The notes beneath the pieces are model-generated. The model was not told where the DNA came from and did not search any database. It saw nothing but the letters and a program-made list of their open reading frames with translations. This document shows, one piece after another, positions 45,286 to 52,231 of a DNA stretch of 64,000 nt (positions are counted from its first letter, which is position 1; each line of letters begins with the position of its first letter). Both the position numbers and the translations under genes were made by a program. Origin of the DNA: Paenibacillus graminis. GTDB taxonomy: Bacteria > Bacillota > Bacilli > Paenibacillales > Paenibacillaceae. The stretch lies in assembly GCF_000758705.1 (NCBI RefSeq), contig NZ_CP009287.1, positions 4,402,001 through 4,466,000 of the forward strand, read 5' to 3'.

Positions 45286-48200
45286 CTATTGAAACATCGT
45301 TACACAGTTCCTGCCTTGAGCTTTGGATTGGTACAGCGCATCATCGCCAAGCTTATAAATATCCTCTTCACGGACATTGTCCACATAGACCGCAGCGACA
45401 CCAATCGATACCGTGATGATTCCATAATCCGTGCTAAGCGCATGCTCTATCCGCTGATCGGCAATGCTTCTGCGGATGCTCTCGGCATATTCACGCGACT
45501 GCCGGGGGGTGAAGCCGCTGACGATGATCCCGAATTCTTCACCGCCGAGCCGGAAGGCATACCCATTGGCACGCGCTGCCAGCTCCTGGAGCAGGGTTCC
45601 GACCCGCCGCAATACCGAATCGCCTTCATAATGGCCATAGGTATCATTGTATTTTTTGAAATAGTCAATATCGAGCATCAGATAGGTCAGGTGCCGCTTG
45701 TTCGCTGCAGCCTTCTCCACTTCCTCCAGGAACAGCTTGTTGAAATATCTGCGGTTATACAGGCCAGTCAGCTCATCGGTGATGGATATCTGTTCGATCA
45801 GCTCAATGTACTTATTCAATTCCTCATTGTTCAGCTCCAGCTCCCTGGTGCGCTCTGCGACCAGCTCCTCCAGATGCTCTTTATGCCGCAGCAGCTCCTG
45901 CTCCGCCTTTTTCCGTTCCGTGATATCCTTAACAGTTCCCTGTATGGCCGGCTGGTTCATATAATTGATCCGTGTGACCTTATGGATGACAATCACCTCA
46001 CGGGTCTGATCCTTGTGGAGTAATTTCGTTTCATATTCAAAAGGGGCCTGCTTCCCCTCCACCCGGCGGTTATAATAATGTGTCACCTTCTCCCGCTCCG
46101 GAAGACTGACGAACTGCTGAAAAGGCTGCCCCACCATTTCTTCAGTCGCATAGCCAAGCATCTGCGCCAATGCTTCATTGACATATCTGCAGATGTTATC
46201 CTGGGTTATAAAAATGCCGTCCTGCATGTTATTGACCAGCTCGCGGTATTTCTCCTCCGAACGCTCCAGCTCGGAATACAGCGTCGCATTTTCCAGCGAG
46301 AAGACCATTTCCCGGGACAGCAGATTGATAATCTTCATCCGCTCCTTGGTGAACACGCCCGTCACCAGGTTGTTTTCCAGATAAATGACGGCAATGGTCT
46401 TGTTTTGGTTGATCAGCGGCATGCAGACCATCGATTTAGGCCGGTGTTTGACAATATAAGGTTCATTGACGAATGGAGTTTCAGAGAACGCATCGTTATA
46501 GATCACACTCTCACGGCTCTCTTCCACCTGCTTCAGAATAGAATATGGCAGATGATCGTACCTGGTCCGGTCATGCACCGCTACGGTTATTCTGTCCTCC
46601 TTCGGACAGTATTCGCCTTCCACAAGCAGGTTCGTCTTGGAGGTCATGAGGATGCAGCCTCTTTGCGCTCCGGCATTTTTGATGACGATTTCCATCAAGG
46701 CTTCCAGCAGATTGCTCAGCTCGATTTCCTTGGAGATGGCTTGCGAAGCCAGCAGCATGGAGTTAATATCCAGACTTTCCGTATAGTCCGTAACGGTCCG
46801 GCCATGCAGGAACTCCTTGGTGCTGATTCTTCTGACCAGATCCGGATAGCGTTCATGAATAAAGGCAATTTTCCCTTTTGCCCCCCAGACCGAATAATAA
46901 TATTCTGACTGTCTCAGCAGATAGCCGGCGAATTCCTTGAAGTCTTTCCGGTAATAAAACCGGGCTGCCAGCTCACTGGCCAGTGCCTTGTACCGCACGA
47001 AGCTGCCCTGCTCGCTGGCCTCAATGGCCAAATCGTAATATTGCCCCGCTTCATCGTCCCTGCCTGCGATCCTGGCCCATTCCGCCTTCATCAGCATCTC
47101 GTGCTGGCGGAAGGTATCCGGGGCGTGTCTGGCCCATTTACGGACCCGGCGGTATTCCTTGCGCATTCGGGCCTTGGCCTGCCTCCTCCGGCTGGCGCCT
47201 AAATCCTTATAGGCATACGCCAGGTTCAAAAAGGTGTACAGGGCGAACTCCTCCATAAAAGCGGACCCGGCAAGCGTGCCGATGATCGGGTAAGCTTTGT
47301 CGATGCAGGCCAGCGCCCCGCTATAGTTTTCATAGGTGAAAAGAAGCTTCATTTTATATATATAATAAATGGCAATTCCTGAATAATATTTAGCGGCTTC
47401 CAGCTCCCTCAGATAGGACGCTTCACTAAAATCTGCGCTGTCAAAGGAAAGGCGGTTGTCCAGCTCCCCTGCCAGATTCAGCAGATATTGCCGGGACAGC
47501 TGCGCGGTCGCCAGGGACTCTTTGTATTTGGTATTTTCGATCATGGCGATCATTCTGGAGCTTTCCTGCAGGTTCGCCGCAATATCCATCCCCGGATTCC
47601 AGAGGTTCACATAGAAGCAGGAATGGGCCAGATAGAGCAGATCTCCAGTCCGCAGGCTGGCATCTATAGAGGCGGTAAACCACTCCTGCAGGGTATCCCA
47701 AGGCTCGGTCCACGTATGGCAGAACAAGGTGTATAATACATACGCTGCCCCTTTCCATTGCAGATCGTTAAACTTGTCATTGATGCGGATCCCCAAACGG
47801 CCGTAGTCAAAGGCTCCCTTGGAATCTCCAAAACCGGACAGCAGCATCCCATAGCCGATAAACGCAAGAGCCGACTCAGGAGCATTCCCATACTTTAGGG
47901 TCAGCCCCACCTTCTTCAGGACAACCAGCCCGAACAGAGAGGTTTCCCCGGAAATAAAGGCCGGCGGAATAAAGTTGATCAGCAGCCGCATCACCAGCTT
48001 CATCTCCGGATCTTCCATCTCACCCGCTTCGAATATGCTCTCGGCAGTTCTTCCCCGCAGCGCAGTTTTGATCTTCACAAGCTCCCCCAGGACAGCCATC
48101 ATCCCCACACGGGCAGGAATGGGAACGCCCATTACAGCTAACCCCAGCCGGCCCGACGCTATAGATTCTTTCATCATTCCCAGGTACATATAGTGATTAG

Positions 48201-50709
48201 CCTGCATTTCGTAGATTTGGGCGAGGGCAAGCCGGTCCCGCGTATGCCGGATCAGCATCGCACATGCCGAATCGGCCGCCTCCACCTGATGGGTCAGATA
48301 TCCGCATTCTGCATACAACTGATAAATCTCCATCGTTAGCGGCCCATTCTCTTCCCAGGCTTCCTCCTTAAGGAGGCTGATATTCACTTCCAGCAGCTTA
48401 AAAGCCGAGTCATAACCAAAAGCTGCCTTGGCTTTCCGCGCGGCTCTTAGATTGATTCCGATGACTTGATCGAAATCCTCCTTTGAGACCAGTCTGTCCA
48501 GTCCTTTATTCAGATGTGCTGCGATATCGACGAGAATACCGTCCGCTTCCCCGGGAGCCAGCCGTTCCAGCAGCAGCCGGCCTATAGCCAGATGCAGAGC
48601 ACCGCTTTCGCCGTTATCCAGCATTTGGTAAAAGGCCTGCTGAATCTTGTCATGGGCAAATTTAAACCGGAGATCCAGATTCTGCAGGGCTTCCTCCTCC
48701 GGCTCTGCCAGGAAGCTGGAAATCAGAACATAGCGGTGTTCTTCGGGTACAATGAATTCCTCCTCAACCGCTCTTGCAATGGCCTGGGCAACCACCTCAA
48801 GGGGTTCATCTGCAATCAGCGCCAATAGACCAAAATCAAATACATTTCCTACAGCAGCGCACAGCATCAGAATTCTCCGCACATTCCCCGGCAGCTCCTG
48901 CTGCTTCAGCATCAGGAAATCCACAACGCTGTCGTTGACCGGCAAGCTGATGATCTGCTGCAGCTGCCAGTTCCAGCCCCCTGTAAGCTCATCGAAATAT
49001 AAATATCCGTTCTTATATAAATCCTTCATAATTTCATTTACAAAAAAGGCGTTGCCTTTGGTCCGCTTAACAATCACTTCTGTAAGCTCCTGCACGCGCA
49101 GGGGCGTAGTGTAGAGGGTTTCAGCTATAAGACAGCCTACTTTTTCTGCGCTCAAAGGATCTAAGACAATTCTGGCAACCCCGTAATTTTTCTCAACAGC
49201 AGCGATGACCCCGAACAGCGGATGACCCTCATGGATTTCATGCTGGCGGTATGAGCAGACGATAAGCACTTTGTGCAGCTGGGACCCAAGCACCAGCTTC
49301 CCGACAAGCTGCAGACTTGAATAATCGGCCCACTGCACATCATCCAGAAATAGAACCAGCGGCCTCTCGTTATGAGTGATCCCTTCGATGAACTTGGCAA
49401 AAGTAAGATAGAACCGGTTGGTCTCCTCGGCCGGATTCAGCGGCTCCATCTCCGGCTGAACGCCAATCCAGCCAGCCAGCTCAGGGATAAGAGTGGTAAT
49501 CAGATTGCCATTTCCGTCCAGCGCTTTGGTTAAGGAACGCTGGATATACGCCTTATGTTCCTCATCCGGACTATCCATCAACTGGCTGATCATCCGCCGG
49601 AAAGCCTGGATCAGCGCGCTATAGGGAATATTTTGGTTGTACTGGTCAAATTTCCCTTCTGCAAACAGGCCCTTCTCCTGGCTTATATACTTGTGCAGCT
49701 CATGCACCAATGCGGTTTTGCCCACACCGGCCTCACCTGTCACCAGCATCAGCTGCGAGCTGCCCCGGACAGTCCGGCGAAAAGCTTCCACGAGGCGTCC
49801 AAGCTCCTCCTCACGCCCGTATAATTTCTGCGGAATCCGGAAGATATTCATCCGGTCTTCTGCGCCAACCACAAAGCTCTCCCTCCCAGCCAGACATTTC
49901 ATCAGATCCGCCTTAATGCCATAAGCGCTTCGGTACCGGTCCTCTGAGGACTTTTCCATCAGCTTCATAATCACTGCTGAAAGACTCTTAGAGACCCTGC
50001 CTCCGCTTGTCTTATAAGGCGGTACCGCTTCTTTGGCAATAATGGAGTAGATCTGCTCCAGCATCTCACCGGCATCATAAGGCTTCGTTCCCGTCATCAT
50101 CTCATAAAGAACGACTCCGAGGGAGTAATAATCGCTGCGGTAATCGATATTGCGGTTCATTCTGCCCGTCTGTTCAGGTGAAATATACAGCAGGCTTCCC
50201 TCCAGCACACCGCTGTTCTGGTAATCCCGTTTTTCCCTGGACAGCTTCACGGCAAGATCAAAATCAATGATCTGTACAATATTTTCTTCCCTGTTCCAAA
50301 TGATATTGGAAGGCTTGATATCCTTATGAATGACATTCCGTTCATGGATTGCCCCAAGAATATCTACGATTTTCACTGCAAGCTGCAGCAGCGCCACCTG
50401 ATCCGGGGACTCTTCCGCCATAATCCGTTTCAGCGACCGGCCGCGGATATCCTCCAGCACCATTACATAAGAGCCGTTTTGCTCCTCCAGTCTGCAGGGT
50501 CTGATGACACCCGGTATACTTTCACTAAGCTCCTTAAGGAGCTTGTATTCCTGCTTAAAACGCATCACTGCTTCAGTTCCGCTAAACTCTGACTTAAGAA
50601 CTTTCAGGATTACCGATTCACCGGTTAAGGGGTCGATGCTTCTGTAAATGGATTTTATATATTGATCGGAAATCGTCTCCACTATCTCATAATGGCCCAA
50701 CGCAACCAT
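45286..50709 (-). CDS. Giant Ser/Thr kinase-ATPase-GAF-PAS-GGDEF signalling protein
   Basis: An 1807-residue cytoplasmic protein with five parts. A Hanks-type kinase (about 5-270) has VILKVL, the catalytic loop HKDIKPSN (HRD read as HKD) and DFD where DFG is usual. An AAA/predicted-ATPase domain (about 290-600) has Walker A GEAGVGKTAL (326) and Walker B LVLFLDDVQWAD. A long helical, TPR-like region follows to about 1330. A GAF domain (about 1335-1480) precedes a PAS domain (about 1490-1600) with its C-terminal PAC. A coiled coil leads to a GGDEF domain with an active GGEEF (about 1724-1728). The output is probably cyclic di-GMP. ATG 50709 is preferred because AAGGTGG lies eight bases upstream. 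Only 13 bp separate it from the membrane protein gene. Confidence 0.9.
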   Translation of the reverse strand: MVALGHYEIVETISDQYIKSIYRSIDPLTGESVILKVLKSEFSGTEAVMRFKQEYKLLKELSESIPGVIRPCRLEEQNGSYVMVLEDIRGRSLKRIMAEESPDQVALLQLAVKIVDILGAIHERNVIHKDIKPSNIIWNREENIVQIIDFDLAVKLSREKRDYQNSGVLEGSLLYISPEQTGRMNRNIDYRSDYYSLGVVLYEMMTGTKPYDAGEMLEQIYSIIAKEAVPPYKTSGGRVSKSLSAVIMKLMEKSSEDRYRSAYGIKADLMKCLAGRESFVVGAEDRMNIFRIPQKLYGREEELGRLVEAFRRTVRGSSQLMLVTGEAGVGKTALVHELHKYISQEKGLFAEGKFDQYNQNIPYSALIQAFRRMISQLMDSPDEEHKAYIQRSLTKALDGNGNLITTLIPELAGWIGVQPEMEPLNPAEETNRFYLTFAKFIEGITHNERPLVLFLDDVQWADYSSLQLVGKLVLGSQLHKVLIVCSYRQHEIHEGHPLFGVIAAVEKNYGVARIVLDPLSAEKVGCLIAETLYTTPLRVQELTEVIVKRTKGNAFFVNEIMKDLYKNGYLYFDELTGGWNWQLQQIISLPVNDSVVDFLMLKQQELPGNVRRILMLCAAVGNVFDFGLLALIADEPLEVVAQAIARAVEEEFIVPEEHRYVLISSFLAEPEEEALQNLDLRFKFAHDKIQQAFYQMLDNGESGALHLAIGRLLLERLAPGEADGILVDIAAHLNKGLDRLVSKEDFDQVIGINLRAARKAKAAFGYDSAFKLLEVNISLLKEEAWEENGPLTMEIYQLYAECGYLTHQVEAADSACAMLIRHTRDRLALAQIYEMQANHYMYLGMMKESIASGRLGLAVMGVPIPARVGMMAVLGELVKIKTALRGRTAESIFEAGEMEDPEMKLVMRLLINFIPPAFISGETSLFGLVVLKKVGLTLKYGNAPESALAFIGYGMLLSGFGDSKGAFDYGRLGIRINDKFNDLQWKGAAYVLYTLFCHTWTEPWDTLQEWFTASIDASLRTGDLLYLAHSCFYVNLWNPGMDIAANLQESSRMIAMIENTKYKESLATAQLSRQYLLNLAGELDNRLSFDSADFSEASYLRELEAAKYYSGIAIYYIYKMKLLFTYENYSGALACIDKAYPIIGTLAGSAFMEEFALYTFLNLAYAYKDLGASRRRQAKARMRKEYRRVRKWARHAPDTFRQHEMLMKAEWARIAGRDDEAGQYYDLAIEASEQGSFVRYKALASELAARFYYRKDFKEFAGYLLRQSEYYYSVWGAKGKIAFIHERYPDLVRRISTKEFLHGRTVTDYTESLDINSMLLASQAISKEIELSNLLEALMEIVIKNAGAQRGCILMTSKTNLLVEGEYCPKEDRITVAVHDRTRYDHLPYSILKQVEESRESVIYNDAFSETPFVNEPYIVKHRPKSMVCMPLINQNKTIAVIYLENNLVTGVFTKERMKIINLLSREMVFSLENATLYSELERSEEKYRELVNNMQDGIFITQDNICRYVNEALAQMLGYATEEMVGQPFQQFVSLPEREKVTHYYNRRVEGKQAPFEYETKLLHKDQTREVIVIHKVTRINYMNQPAIQGTVKDITERKKAEQELLRHKEHLEELVAERTRELELNNEELNKYIELIEQISITDELTGLYNRRYFNKLFLEEVEKAAANKRHLTYLMLDIDYFKKYNDTYGHYEGDSVLRRVGTLLQELAARANGYAFRLGGEEFGIIVSGFTPRQSREYAESIRRSIADQRIEHALSTDYGIITVSIGVAAVYVDNVREEDIYKLGDDALYQSKAQGRNCVTMFQ

Positions 50710-50722
50710 ACCCACTCCACCT

Positions 50723-51889
50723 TTAGCTCTGATCTCCCGTCACATCAATATCCGCATTGAATTTAAAAATATAGGCGGCAATCAGCCAGATAATCCAGCA
50801 GTTCAATCCAAAAAAGAGATACCCGAAATATCCCAGAACCGGCATCTCGGAGAAAATATGAAATTTGTCCAGATAAGGGACAGAATATTTCCAGTAGTTA
50901 GGATTGGTCGGCAGGGAATCATGGAACCACTCGCTTCCGAAATTCCACAACTCCCAGAAAAATCCGTTAAACAGTGTGGCAAGTCCAATCAGAATGACAC
51001 TGGACCAGTCCCCGTTCTTGACGGGAGTAAAGGGTGTCCAGAAACCGGCAAGCGCCATGGCGGCAGAAAGCATGGGGACCAGCGCTACCCACAGCACCCA
51101 GAACAGCACATAAGGATAATACCCCATACCAAAAGCCAAAATCAGCCCCAGCACATAATAAAGGATCAGAAACGCCCGGGAGACGTTAAATTTCGGTCCG
51201 TTTTTGTAGCGGTTCCTGAATGCGCTGAAGGTCTTGAGCAGCAGGTACCACTCAAAGATTGCAGGGAGCACCGTTGTATAAGAGAGGGAAAACCAGAACA
51301 CATTGCCGAAGTTCGAGAACACTTTATCGTTTGGGTAATACCAGTTTTCGATCACAAAAAAATTCAGGAATTCAAAAGCAAACCAGCTGAAGCAGGACAC
51401 CACAGCCAGCAGCTGCATGACATGAGGCTTGCGTGAAATGATCGACGCACCTTTATTTCTTTTGTATACCAGCCCGTCCAGAATTAAAATAAATGACCAC
51501 CATAAGGGGACAAAGGTGTAATATTCGAGGGAAATGACCAGCTTGACCCGTGCCCACATCAGGAACCAGCTCACTGCAAACACCGGCAGGCTCCACCAGA
51601 ACCAGACCGGGAATGGGGTTGCACCGTCTGTCGGGGCAGCTTCCTCTTTGATCTTTTTAAAGCCAAACCAGCGGGGAAAAACCAGAACCAGCGTAATGAC
51701 CAGCGCGACAATACACGCCAGGGAAAAGTACAGCAGGCTGAAGCCAGGGTCGGCCTCCGCTTTTTGTGCGGGAAATTCGCCATAGCCGGGCGGAAGTCCC
51801 TTCCACTTGGACAAGCTGCCAATCAAGGGGAGCAGAAAAATCAAAGCAAACGTCACAATCAGGAACAAGATCTTGTTTTTTCTCAGCAT
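50723..51889 (-). CDS. Multipass membrane protein, unknown, next to the giant kinase
   Basis: A 388-residue protein with about ten to eleven hydrophobic helices, rich in aromatics (Trp, Tyr, Phe). Conserved-looking patches are WFWWSLPVFAVSWFLMWARV, WFAFEFLNFFVIENWYYPND, and GFFWELWNFGSEWFHDSLPT. No family is recognised; the aromatic-rich helices might recall carotenoid- or polyprenol-related enzymes, but no motif proves it. ATG 51889 has GAGGGG eight bases upstream. Its stop is 13 bp from the giant kinase start, so the two are translated from one message and may form a sensor-effector pair. Confidence 0.78.
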   Translation of the reverse strand: MLRKNKILFLIVTFALIFLLPLIGSLSKWKGLPPGYGEFPAQKAEADPGFSLLYFSLACIVALVITLVLVFPRWFGFKKIKEEAAPTDGATPFPVWFWWSLPVFAVSWFLMWARVKLVISLEYYTFVPLWWSFILILDGLVYKRNKGASIISRKPHVMQLLAVVSCFSWFAFEFLNFFVIENWYYPNDKVFSNFGNVFWFSLSYTTVLPAIFEWYLLLKTFSAFRNRYKNGPKFNVSRAFLILYYVLGLILAFGMGYYPYVLFWVLWVALVPMLSAAMALAGFWTPFTPVKNGDWSSVILIGLATLFNGFFWELWNFGSEWFHDSLPTNPNYWKYSVPYLDKFHIFSEMPVLGYFGYLFFGLNCWIIWLIAAYIFKFNADIDVTGDQS

Positions 51890-52231
51890 GGCCATAACCC
51901 CTCTTATGTAGAAAAAGTTGAGTTTGTTGATAACCGGAACTATTCGATGTCTGTCCAGATTATTCCTGCCTGGTTAGTTTGCCTTTCTACCTTTTTTCGG
52001 GGGGACCTGGCAGCAAACAAGCAAAAGACGTTCCAGATGCCAGATATGGCTGCGGAACGCCGGTTGTATATGGGGTAGGTCCGATATTCACCCAGGGCTG
52101 GCGCCATGAAACACTTCAGGATTAGCAGTATTTTCGGGTGCCCGAAGCAGCTTCACAGCATCGTCCCGGCCGGATGACCGCAGATGGCAGCTTCCACTGA
52201 ATTGGCCCGGCGTTACACCTCCATCACAGGA

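Follow-up and report, generated by a model that had tools for sequence, protein, structure and literature searches.

Multi-helix membrane protein encoded beside kinase-STAND-GAF giants of varying output: a putative receptor/transducer pair of Paenibacillus and distant bacteria

Several groups of proteins that join a protein kinase to further signalling domains have been described. The cyanobacterial HstK/cbSTKIII proteins are 'KD' kinases with an altered DFG motif, its glycine being replaced by Ser in 30 members; according to the part of PMC2176072 consulted here they combine an N-terminal 'KD' Hanks kinase and a GAF domain with a C-terminal histidine kinase, and that part mentions no membrane partner. 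Clostridium thermocellum has a protein of 1826 amino acids with a kinase domain, 6 TPRs and a GGDEF domain, which the consulted section of PMC1262709 gives as a single protein with no mention of a partner. The fungal proteins Mak2 and Mak3 likewise start with a Ser/Thr kinase domain, followed by GAF and a C-terminal signalling output, but they are eukaryotic and have a histidine kinase plus receiver (PMC5383687, in the excerpt used). In the 7TMR-DISM receptors a multi-helix membrane module is fused to a GGDEF, guanylate cyclase or SpoIIE output. Some bacteria carry more than ten kinase-STAND-GAF giants, and to our knowledge the way in which these receive signals is largely unknown.

The window, a stretch of 64,000 nucleotides of the Paenibacillus graminis genome, harbors a gene for such a giant directly downstream of a gene for a membrane protein, here called MP. 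A first-pass annotation had placed this pair side by side and read the giant as a kinase-ATPase-GAF-PAS-GGDEF protein; both ORFs, on the minus strand, and the order of the domains were confirmed, and the 7.17 Mb single-contig genome gave one MP match. The longest giant ORF (45286-50715, GTG start) encodes 1809 amino acids. A gene at 45286-50709 is likelier, since the purine-rich, ribosome-binding type sequence AAAGGTGGAG lies five bases 5' of the ATG at 50709; the resulting 1807 amino acids are the size of many giant homologues. The MP ORF opens at 51895, but the purine-rich ribosome-binding sequence AGAGGGG is at a better distance from the ATG at 51889, and a start there gives a protein of 388 amino acids. 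With these most likely start codons, the MP stop lies 13 bp upstream of the giant ATG, the spacing that had been claimed. The nearest named homologues are from Paenibacillus, the P. riograndensis giant being 95% identical. The features are as follows, with giant residues counted from the GTG of the 1809-residue ORF.

50723..51889, minus strand: MP, 388 aa, about ten predicted TM helices, no known family (ORF, family searches, hydropathy, AF2 model)
45286..50709, minus strand: giant kinase-STAND-GAF-PAS-GGDEF protein, 1807 aa (ORF reaches the GTG at 50715)
49933..50649, minus strand: Hanks-type kinase domain, residues 23-261 (Pfam PF00069, E 2.8e-33)
50320..50328, minus strand: HKD catalytic loop, residues 130-132 (motif reading)
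50257..50265, minus strand: DFD replacing DFG, residues 151-153 (motif reading)
49258..49827, minus strand: AAA_16 P-loop NTPase, residues 297-486 (Pfam PF13191, E 9.5e-40; Walker A GEAGVGKT, Walker B LVLFLDD)
46741..48753, minus strand: predicted helical TPR-like solenoid, residues 655-1325 (AlphaFold model)
46312..46719, minus strand: GAF domain, residues 1333-1468 (Pfam PF01590)
45916..46254, minus strand: PAS domain, residues 1488-1600 (Pfam PF13426/PF00989)
45307..45783, minus strand: GGDEF diguanylate cyclase domain, residues 1645-1803 (Pfam PF00990, E 1.9e-42; GGEEF intact, RxxD I-site apparently absent)

The Pfam matches of the giant, in the order Pkinase, AAA_16, GAF, PAS and GGDEF, together with the motif readings bear out the Hanks-type kinase with HKD loop and DFD, the AAA ATPase, GAF and PAS domains and the GGEEF motif called from the letters in the first-pass annotation. 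The TPR-like helices called there correspond to no TPR family among the best 25 of 31 Pfam matches, but when modelled with AlphaFold residues 655-1325 (pLDDT 88.4) form an all-helical solenoid resembling known TPR solenoids, including MalT domain III and Rap; the likeness to MalT is shared by other TPR solenoids, which score equally high. Alignment showed that the kinase residues Lys38, Asp132, Asn137 and Asp151 are all in place, the last within the motif IIDFDLA (149-155), as expected of a Hanks-type kinase. The Walker residues Lys333/Thr334 and Asp458 are present as well, and with the modelled helical domain behind the NTPase, a putative sensor, the protein has these two traits of the STAND ATPases. 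GGEEF and DELTGLYNRR are intact, the signature of a diguanylate cyclase, and c-di-GMP synthesis is predicted. Gly (RANG) occupies the position that we take to be the Asp of the RxxD I-site, so that this site looks absent. The highest hydropathy window of the giant is 2.08, near residue 615; from this profile, rather than from a TM predictor, we read the protein as cytoplasmic.

Similar to HstK/cbSTKIII, the giant has an N-terminal Ser/Thr kinase with a KD loop and a GAF domain, whereas it ends in PAS-GGDEF and has DFD; a C-terminal histidine kinase is present in several of its MP-paired relatives. The C. thermocellum protein, set beside the giant by its description, shares the kinase, a TPR-like middle, the GGDEF end and a similar size. 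Compared with STAND ATPases such as MalT, as portrayed in the consulted part of PMC4381067, the giant adds the N-terminal kinase and the C-terminal GAF-PAS-GGDEF. Judged by its domains, the giant alone is an ordinary protein, kinase-ATPase-GAF-output proteins being known already. The earlier idea of a signalling pair is supported, whereas the architecture of the giant, with its HKD loop and altered DFG, has the traits of a known broad class.

The window MP gave no match in Pfam, NCBIfam or PDB and the profile of its family matched no PDB chain; 26 relatives gave only weak matches (four DUF families in Pfam, E up to 1; AmaP in NCBIfam in four of the 26). The profile search that had been proposed for this protein thus left it without a known family in these three collections. 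Assignment to DUF1361 (PF07099) was rejected (hhalign probability 0.3, E 0.22, no Pfam match), as was assignment to the 7TMR-DISM receptors, from which MP differs in being a separate polypeptide and whose family PF07695 was unmatched in 26 members. An alignment was made of the window MP and 34 homologues, taken from 120 listed of 705. The aromatic share (W/F/Y) of 23% agrees with the earlier description of MP as aromatic-rich, and there are ten hydropathy peaks. The AlphaFold (AF2) model is helical (pLDDT 84.9, pTM 0.88), with no convincing relative among PDB structures. Ten TM helices were placed by hand from this model, and alternation and charge suggest an inside N-terminus. In this predicted topology conservation is higher in the loops outside than in those inside (mean entropy 1.35 vs 1.80 bits, p 0.004, 26 sequences). 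The motifs NWYYPN and TNPNYWKYSVPYLDK...SEMPxLGYFGY would face outward and likely form a binding or catalytic face. Invariant polar and aromatic residues in the 26 sequences are E175, E315, E350, D140, R146, N184, W185 and Y187.

Within the genus Paenibacillus, 52 of 100 genomes have MP and 52 have the giant (match at E 1e-150): both genes occur in 50, MP only in two (G064, G099), giant only in two (G018, G088) and neither in 46. Fisher's test gives p 1.6e-23 for this co-occurrence when the genomes are treated as independent and their kinship is ignored. In all 50 genomes the two genes have the same orientation, and 10-34 bp separate their aligned ends; G075, counted here as having both, has an MP matched only in pieces. 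In G099 an N-terminal MP remnant (aa 7-61) runs into a C-terminal giant remnant (aa 1719-1807), and a single deletion appears to have removed both genes together. A family sample of 295 genomes, genus members included, gave 37 with both, two with MP only (G064, G136), five with a close giant only and 251 with neither, where a close giant has 39% identity or more and, with two candidates scored per genome, paralogues may be missed. The five (G165, G174, G183, G198, G219) all belong to genus g8; with G018 and G088 they bring to seven the genomes in which a close giant was found but MP was not matched.

GTDB species genomes were scanned with the MP alignment and two peptide patterns, which yielded at least 59 loci. 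At 42 of these 59, MP is followed by a giant in the same orientation; 16 have no giant downstream and one is cut off by a contig end. The paired loci comprise 29 of 30 in Paenibacillus, nine of 13 judgeable ones in Bacteroidota (a 14th contig ends inside MP), three of four in Spirochaetota and the one in Caldalkalibacillus. No giant follows MP in Nannocystis (0/6), a record titled Clostridium yunnanense, Herpetosiphonaceae of the Chloroflexota, Colwellia or Sideroxydans (0/1 each); the pairing is not obligate. Outside the Bacteroidota the distance between the genes ranges from overlap to 30 bp, with ORFs overlapping by 4 bp in L060, L073 and L075; other overlaps depend on the start codon chosen. 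In the Bacteroidota 221-1236 bp separate MP and giant, usually with one small gene between them, which is of the DUF1361 family in seven, a different ORF in L074 and missing in L067. The MP match of L075 contains an internal stop, for which reason this locus was omitted from one alignment (A4), and MP is partly missing in L090; a long giant ORF adjoins both. The MP gene is rare: of 395 genomes sampled from the class to which the Spirosoma genome G361 belongs, three have it, G361 itself being one of the three, and two were Spirosoma genomes already known to be positive; abundance therefore does not explain the neighbourhood. Lack of co-conservation had been named beforehand as the result that would speak against the pair. 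The scan showed MP to be co-conserved with giants of the kinase-AAA type among the Firmicutes, the Bacteroidota and the Spirochaetota, and it is because of this recurrence across phyla that we take the pair to exceed chance; these comparisons support a conserved signalling pair.

The output domain of the giants varies. Of ten distant MP-paired giants scanned, eight (L063, L064, L067, L068, L070, L074, L075, L080) have a HATPase_c C-terminus, with or without a HisKA match, while L076 ends in SpoIIE and L077 in GGDEF. Of the 29 paired giants of Paenibacillus, 26 contain GG(D/E)EF; those of L060 and L062 stop at 1335 and 1296 amino acids, about where GAF would start, and that of L042 is truncated by a contig end. 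The outputs found with MP are thus GGDEF, histidine kinase, SpoIIE or none. The homologue P0187, which perhaps shares a contig with the MP homologue P0052, both contigs having a length of 12127, also ends in SpoIIE. The earlier proposal that a signal is turned into c-di-GMP fits the window giant with its intact GGEEF, but not most of the distant paired relatives, which end in a histidine kinase, or the one that ends in SpoIIE. Gating by phosphorylation, proposed along with it, is doubtful as a general rule: in an alignment of 23 MP-paired giants the four kinase residues (K/D/N/D) are intact in 17 and altered in six, whereas the Walker residues are conserved in 21. The occurrence of MP and giant in very different bacteria, with varying output, suggests an undescribed receptor/transducer pair. 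That MP has stayed with one giant lineage as outputs were exchanged directs attention to the input end of the system. The open-access literature searched held nothing on the MP family or its association with giants; these are the new element.

A quick tree (LG+G4) was calculated for 56 of the 68 giants of a first tree, the 12 omitted being mostly close relatives of rows that were kept; the group of giants tested was chosen with the first tree already in view. Of the 17 MP-paired giants, 16 fall together on one side of a branch with support 100, along with four of 21 rows of unknown pairing and six of 18 unpaired rows (two giants of the genus Paenibacillus without MP, two of genus g8, one with DUF1361 only and a second Spirosoma giant). 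The giants of firmicutes and Bacteroidota form one side of a branch together with those of the Spirochaetales L073 and L075; without these two the best tree does not show the group as a clade, though the group is not rejected (AU p 0.38). L073 and L075 are long branches. The Leptospiraceae giant L080 falls outside, and forcing it into the firmicute and Bacteroidota group was rejected (AU p 0.0007), so MP has apparently been paired with giants at least twice; the L080 genome has 17 giant matches, which makes a chance giant neighbour somewhat likelier there. Changes between paired and unpaired number 7 on 35 rows, as a raw count without a shuffle control. In our reading there was one main pairing, MP was lost several times, and it was paired anew at least once.

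The reading we favor, with a confidence that stays a little short of an even chance, is that MP and giant form one membrane-to-cytoplasm signalling unit, a receptor with a STAND-type transducer of exchangeable output. MP would be a ten-helix receptor with both termini inside, its conserved outward loops serving as sensing face, and would signal by contact to the cytoplasmic giant. There the TPR-like solenoid would receive the signal together with the AAA_16 switch and the kinase domain, whether the latter is active or decayed; ATP-dependent opening and assembly would then join the C-terminal domains, upon which the output domain fires. In the Paenibacillus of the window the output would be c-di-GMP made by the GGEEF domain, presumably without the usual RxxD feedback site, and in relatives a histidine kinase or SpoIIE phosphatase would take its place.

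The chief rival, possible though rather doubtful in our estimate, is that MP is an enzyme or transporter which makes, modifies or admits a small molecule, such as a lipid, a quinone or a fragment of the wall, sensed by the solenoid, GAF or PAS domain of the giant, a linked function for which contact is not required. The invariant residues of MP resemble an active or binding site, giants were unmatched (E 1e-80) in the genomes of four giant-less MP loci (L059, L078, L081, L084), and MalT and Rap, which bind small ligands or peptides, are among the nearest folds of the solenoid; however, MP matches no enzyme or transporter family in Pfam, NCBIfam or PDB, and its recurring neighbour is a signal transducer and not a metabolic pathway. 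The data do not separate this from the receptor reading. MP could instead be a target, controlled by the kinase or c-di-GMP of the giant, since its gene directly precedes that of the giant at a distance that would allow a single transcript, and the kinase residues of the window giant are intact; as a target should need one output, its persistence through GGDEF, histidine kinase, SpoIIE or none makes this improbable, as do the altered kinase residues in six of 23 paired giants.

That the two genes merely travelled together, adjacent without shared function, we consider very improbable. Most paired giants belong to one lineage, so the adjacency may largely be a single inherited event, and either gene can be lost alone, but the rarity of MP, its short or overlapping distances to the giant in distant groups and the apparent second pairing at L080, for all the giants of that genome, argue otherwise. 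An accidental neighbourhood of MP is disfavoured by the data alongside MP as target of one output. Public records name MP 'small-conductance mechanosensitive channel' or 'MscS', which would have the giant answer membrane tension. These names are what speaks for such a channel; the family models used do not support the label, as 26 members matched no MscS family in either Pfam or NCBIfam, searched to E 1 and E 0.1 respectively, and no PDB sequence matched, and we regard this as the least probable reading.

Where MP occurs apart from giants its neighbours are mostly not signalling genes, in a scan that covered part of the giant-less loci, among them three of the six of Nannocystis. Such neighbours are GroEL and TatC (L059), peptidase M15 (L065), DNA ligase (L072), a lamin-tail and a DUF1552 protein (L082), an ABC transporter and GreA (L054), a solute-binding protein (L078) and a prenyltransferase and HAD hydrolase (L081). 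A signalling gene, for a Hanks kinase, lies two genes upstream at L069. Three of the 16 giant-less loci adjoin 7TMR-DISM signalling genes: one with GGDEF precedes MP by 54 bp in the same orientation at L084, and ones with SpoIIE are divergent from MP at L061 and L071. L197, a locus not among the 59, has a 7TMR-DISM-guanylate cyclase gene 18 bp downstream. Counted without a random-gene control, this association with other signalling genes is a tendency at most. It is conceivable, if somewhat unlikely, that MP founds a new modular class of membrane receptors with outward NWYYPN and EMPxLG-GY motifs, which would plug into STAND kinase giants, stand elsewhere beside 7TMR-DISM outputs and drive one of several exchangeable outputs, be it c-di-GMP, cyclic GMP/AMP, a phosphorelay or signalling of the PP2C type, forming with the giant a membrane-docked, ATP-assembled platform comparable in principle to other STAND platforms. 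The Bacteroidales giant L193 has an adjoining DUF1361-family gene and no MP. At L063 and L064, where giants are present, the opposite flank of MP carries a divergent gene for a receiver-guanylate cyclase.

The GGDEF part of the giant, the 1807-residue kinase-AAA_16-GAF-PAS-GGDEF protein, has 22 additional matches within the Paenibacillus graminis genome, so that the strain has many likely diguanylate cyclases, of which the giant is one. A divergent paralogue of the giant itself (30% identical; L003, 6356802-6360965, plus strand) lies elsewhere in the same genome with no gene for the 388-residue membrane protein (MP) adjoining, and its match to the giant stops within the GAF part. At an E-value threshold of 1e-80, and with at most 20 candidates scored per genome, G374 (the genome of locus L080), G366 (that of L072) and the Nannocystis genomes G376, G377 and G379-G382 each have between 11 and 17 matches to the giant; some of those in G374 are in tandem.

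At L201:9280-9712, in genome G099, a deletion scar leads directly from an N-terminal remnant of MP to a C-terminal remnant of the giant. The scar is flanked by an AsnC/Lrp-like and a TetR-like gene (named by eye), and in G018 a long giant reading frame lies between what, by eye, are apparently the same neighbours. Locus L054, in a record titled Clostridium yunnanense, encodes an MP that is 69% identical to the Paenibacillus protein, and the sole giant of that genome is distant; either transfer or a mislabelled record would account for this MP.

In a Bacteroidales genome, a giant is found directly downstream of a DUF1361-family gene with no MP adjoining (L193:3367-9401), and MP is present on a separate contig (L065). 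Two Cytophagales loci (L061:7392-11807 and L071:7590-11752) carry MP and a DUF1361-family gene divergent from a 7TMR-DISM-SpoIIE gene, and the giant is absent there. At L197:326-3496 (G655, from the class of the Spirosoma genome), a 7TMR-DISM guanylate cyclase gene lies 18 bp downstream of an MP relative of 34% identity; a search with this relative as query found 378 proteins.
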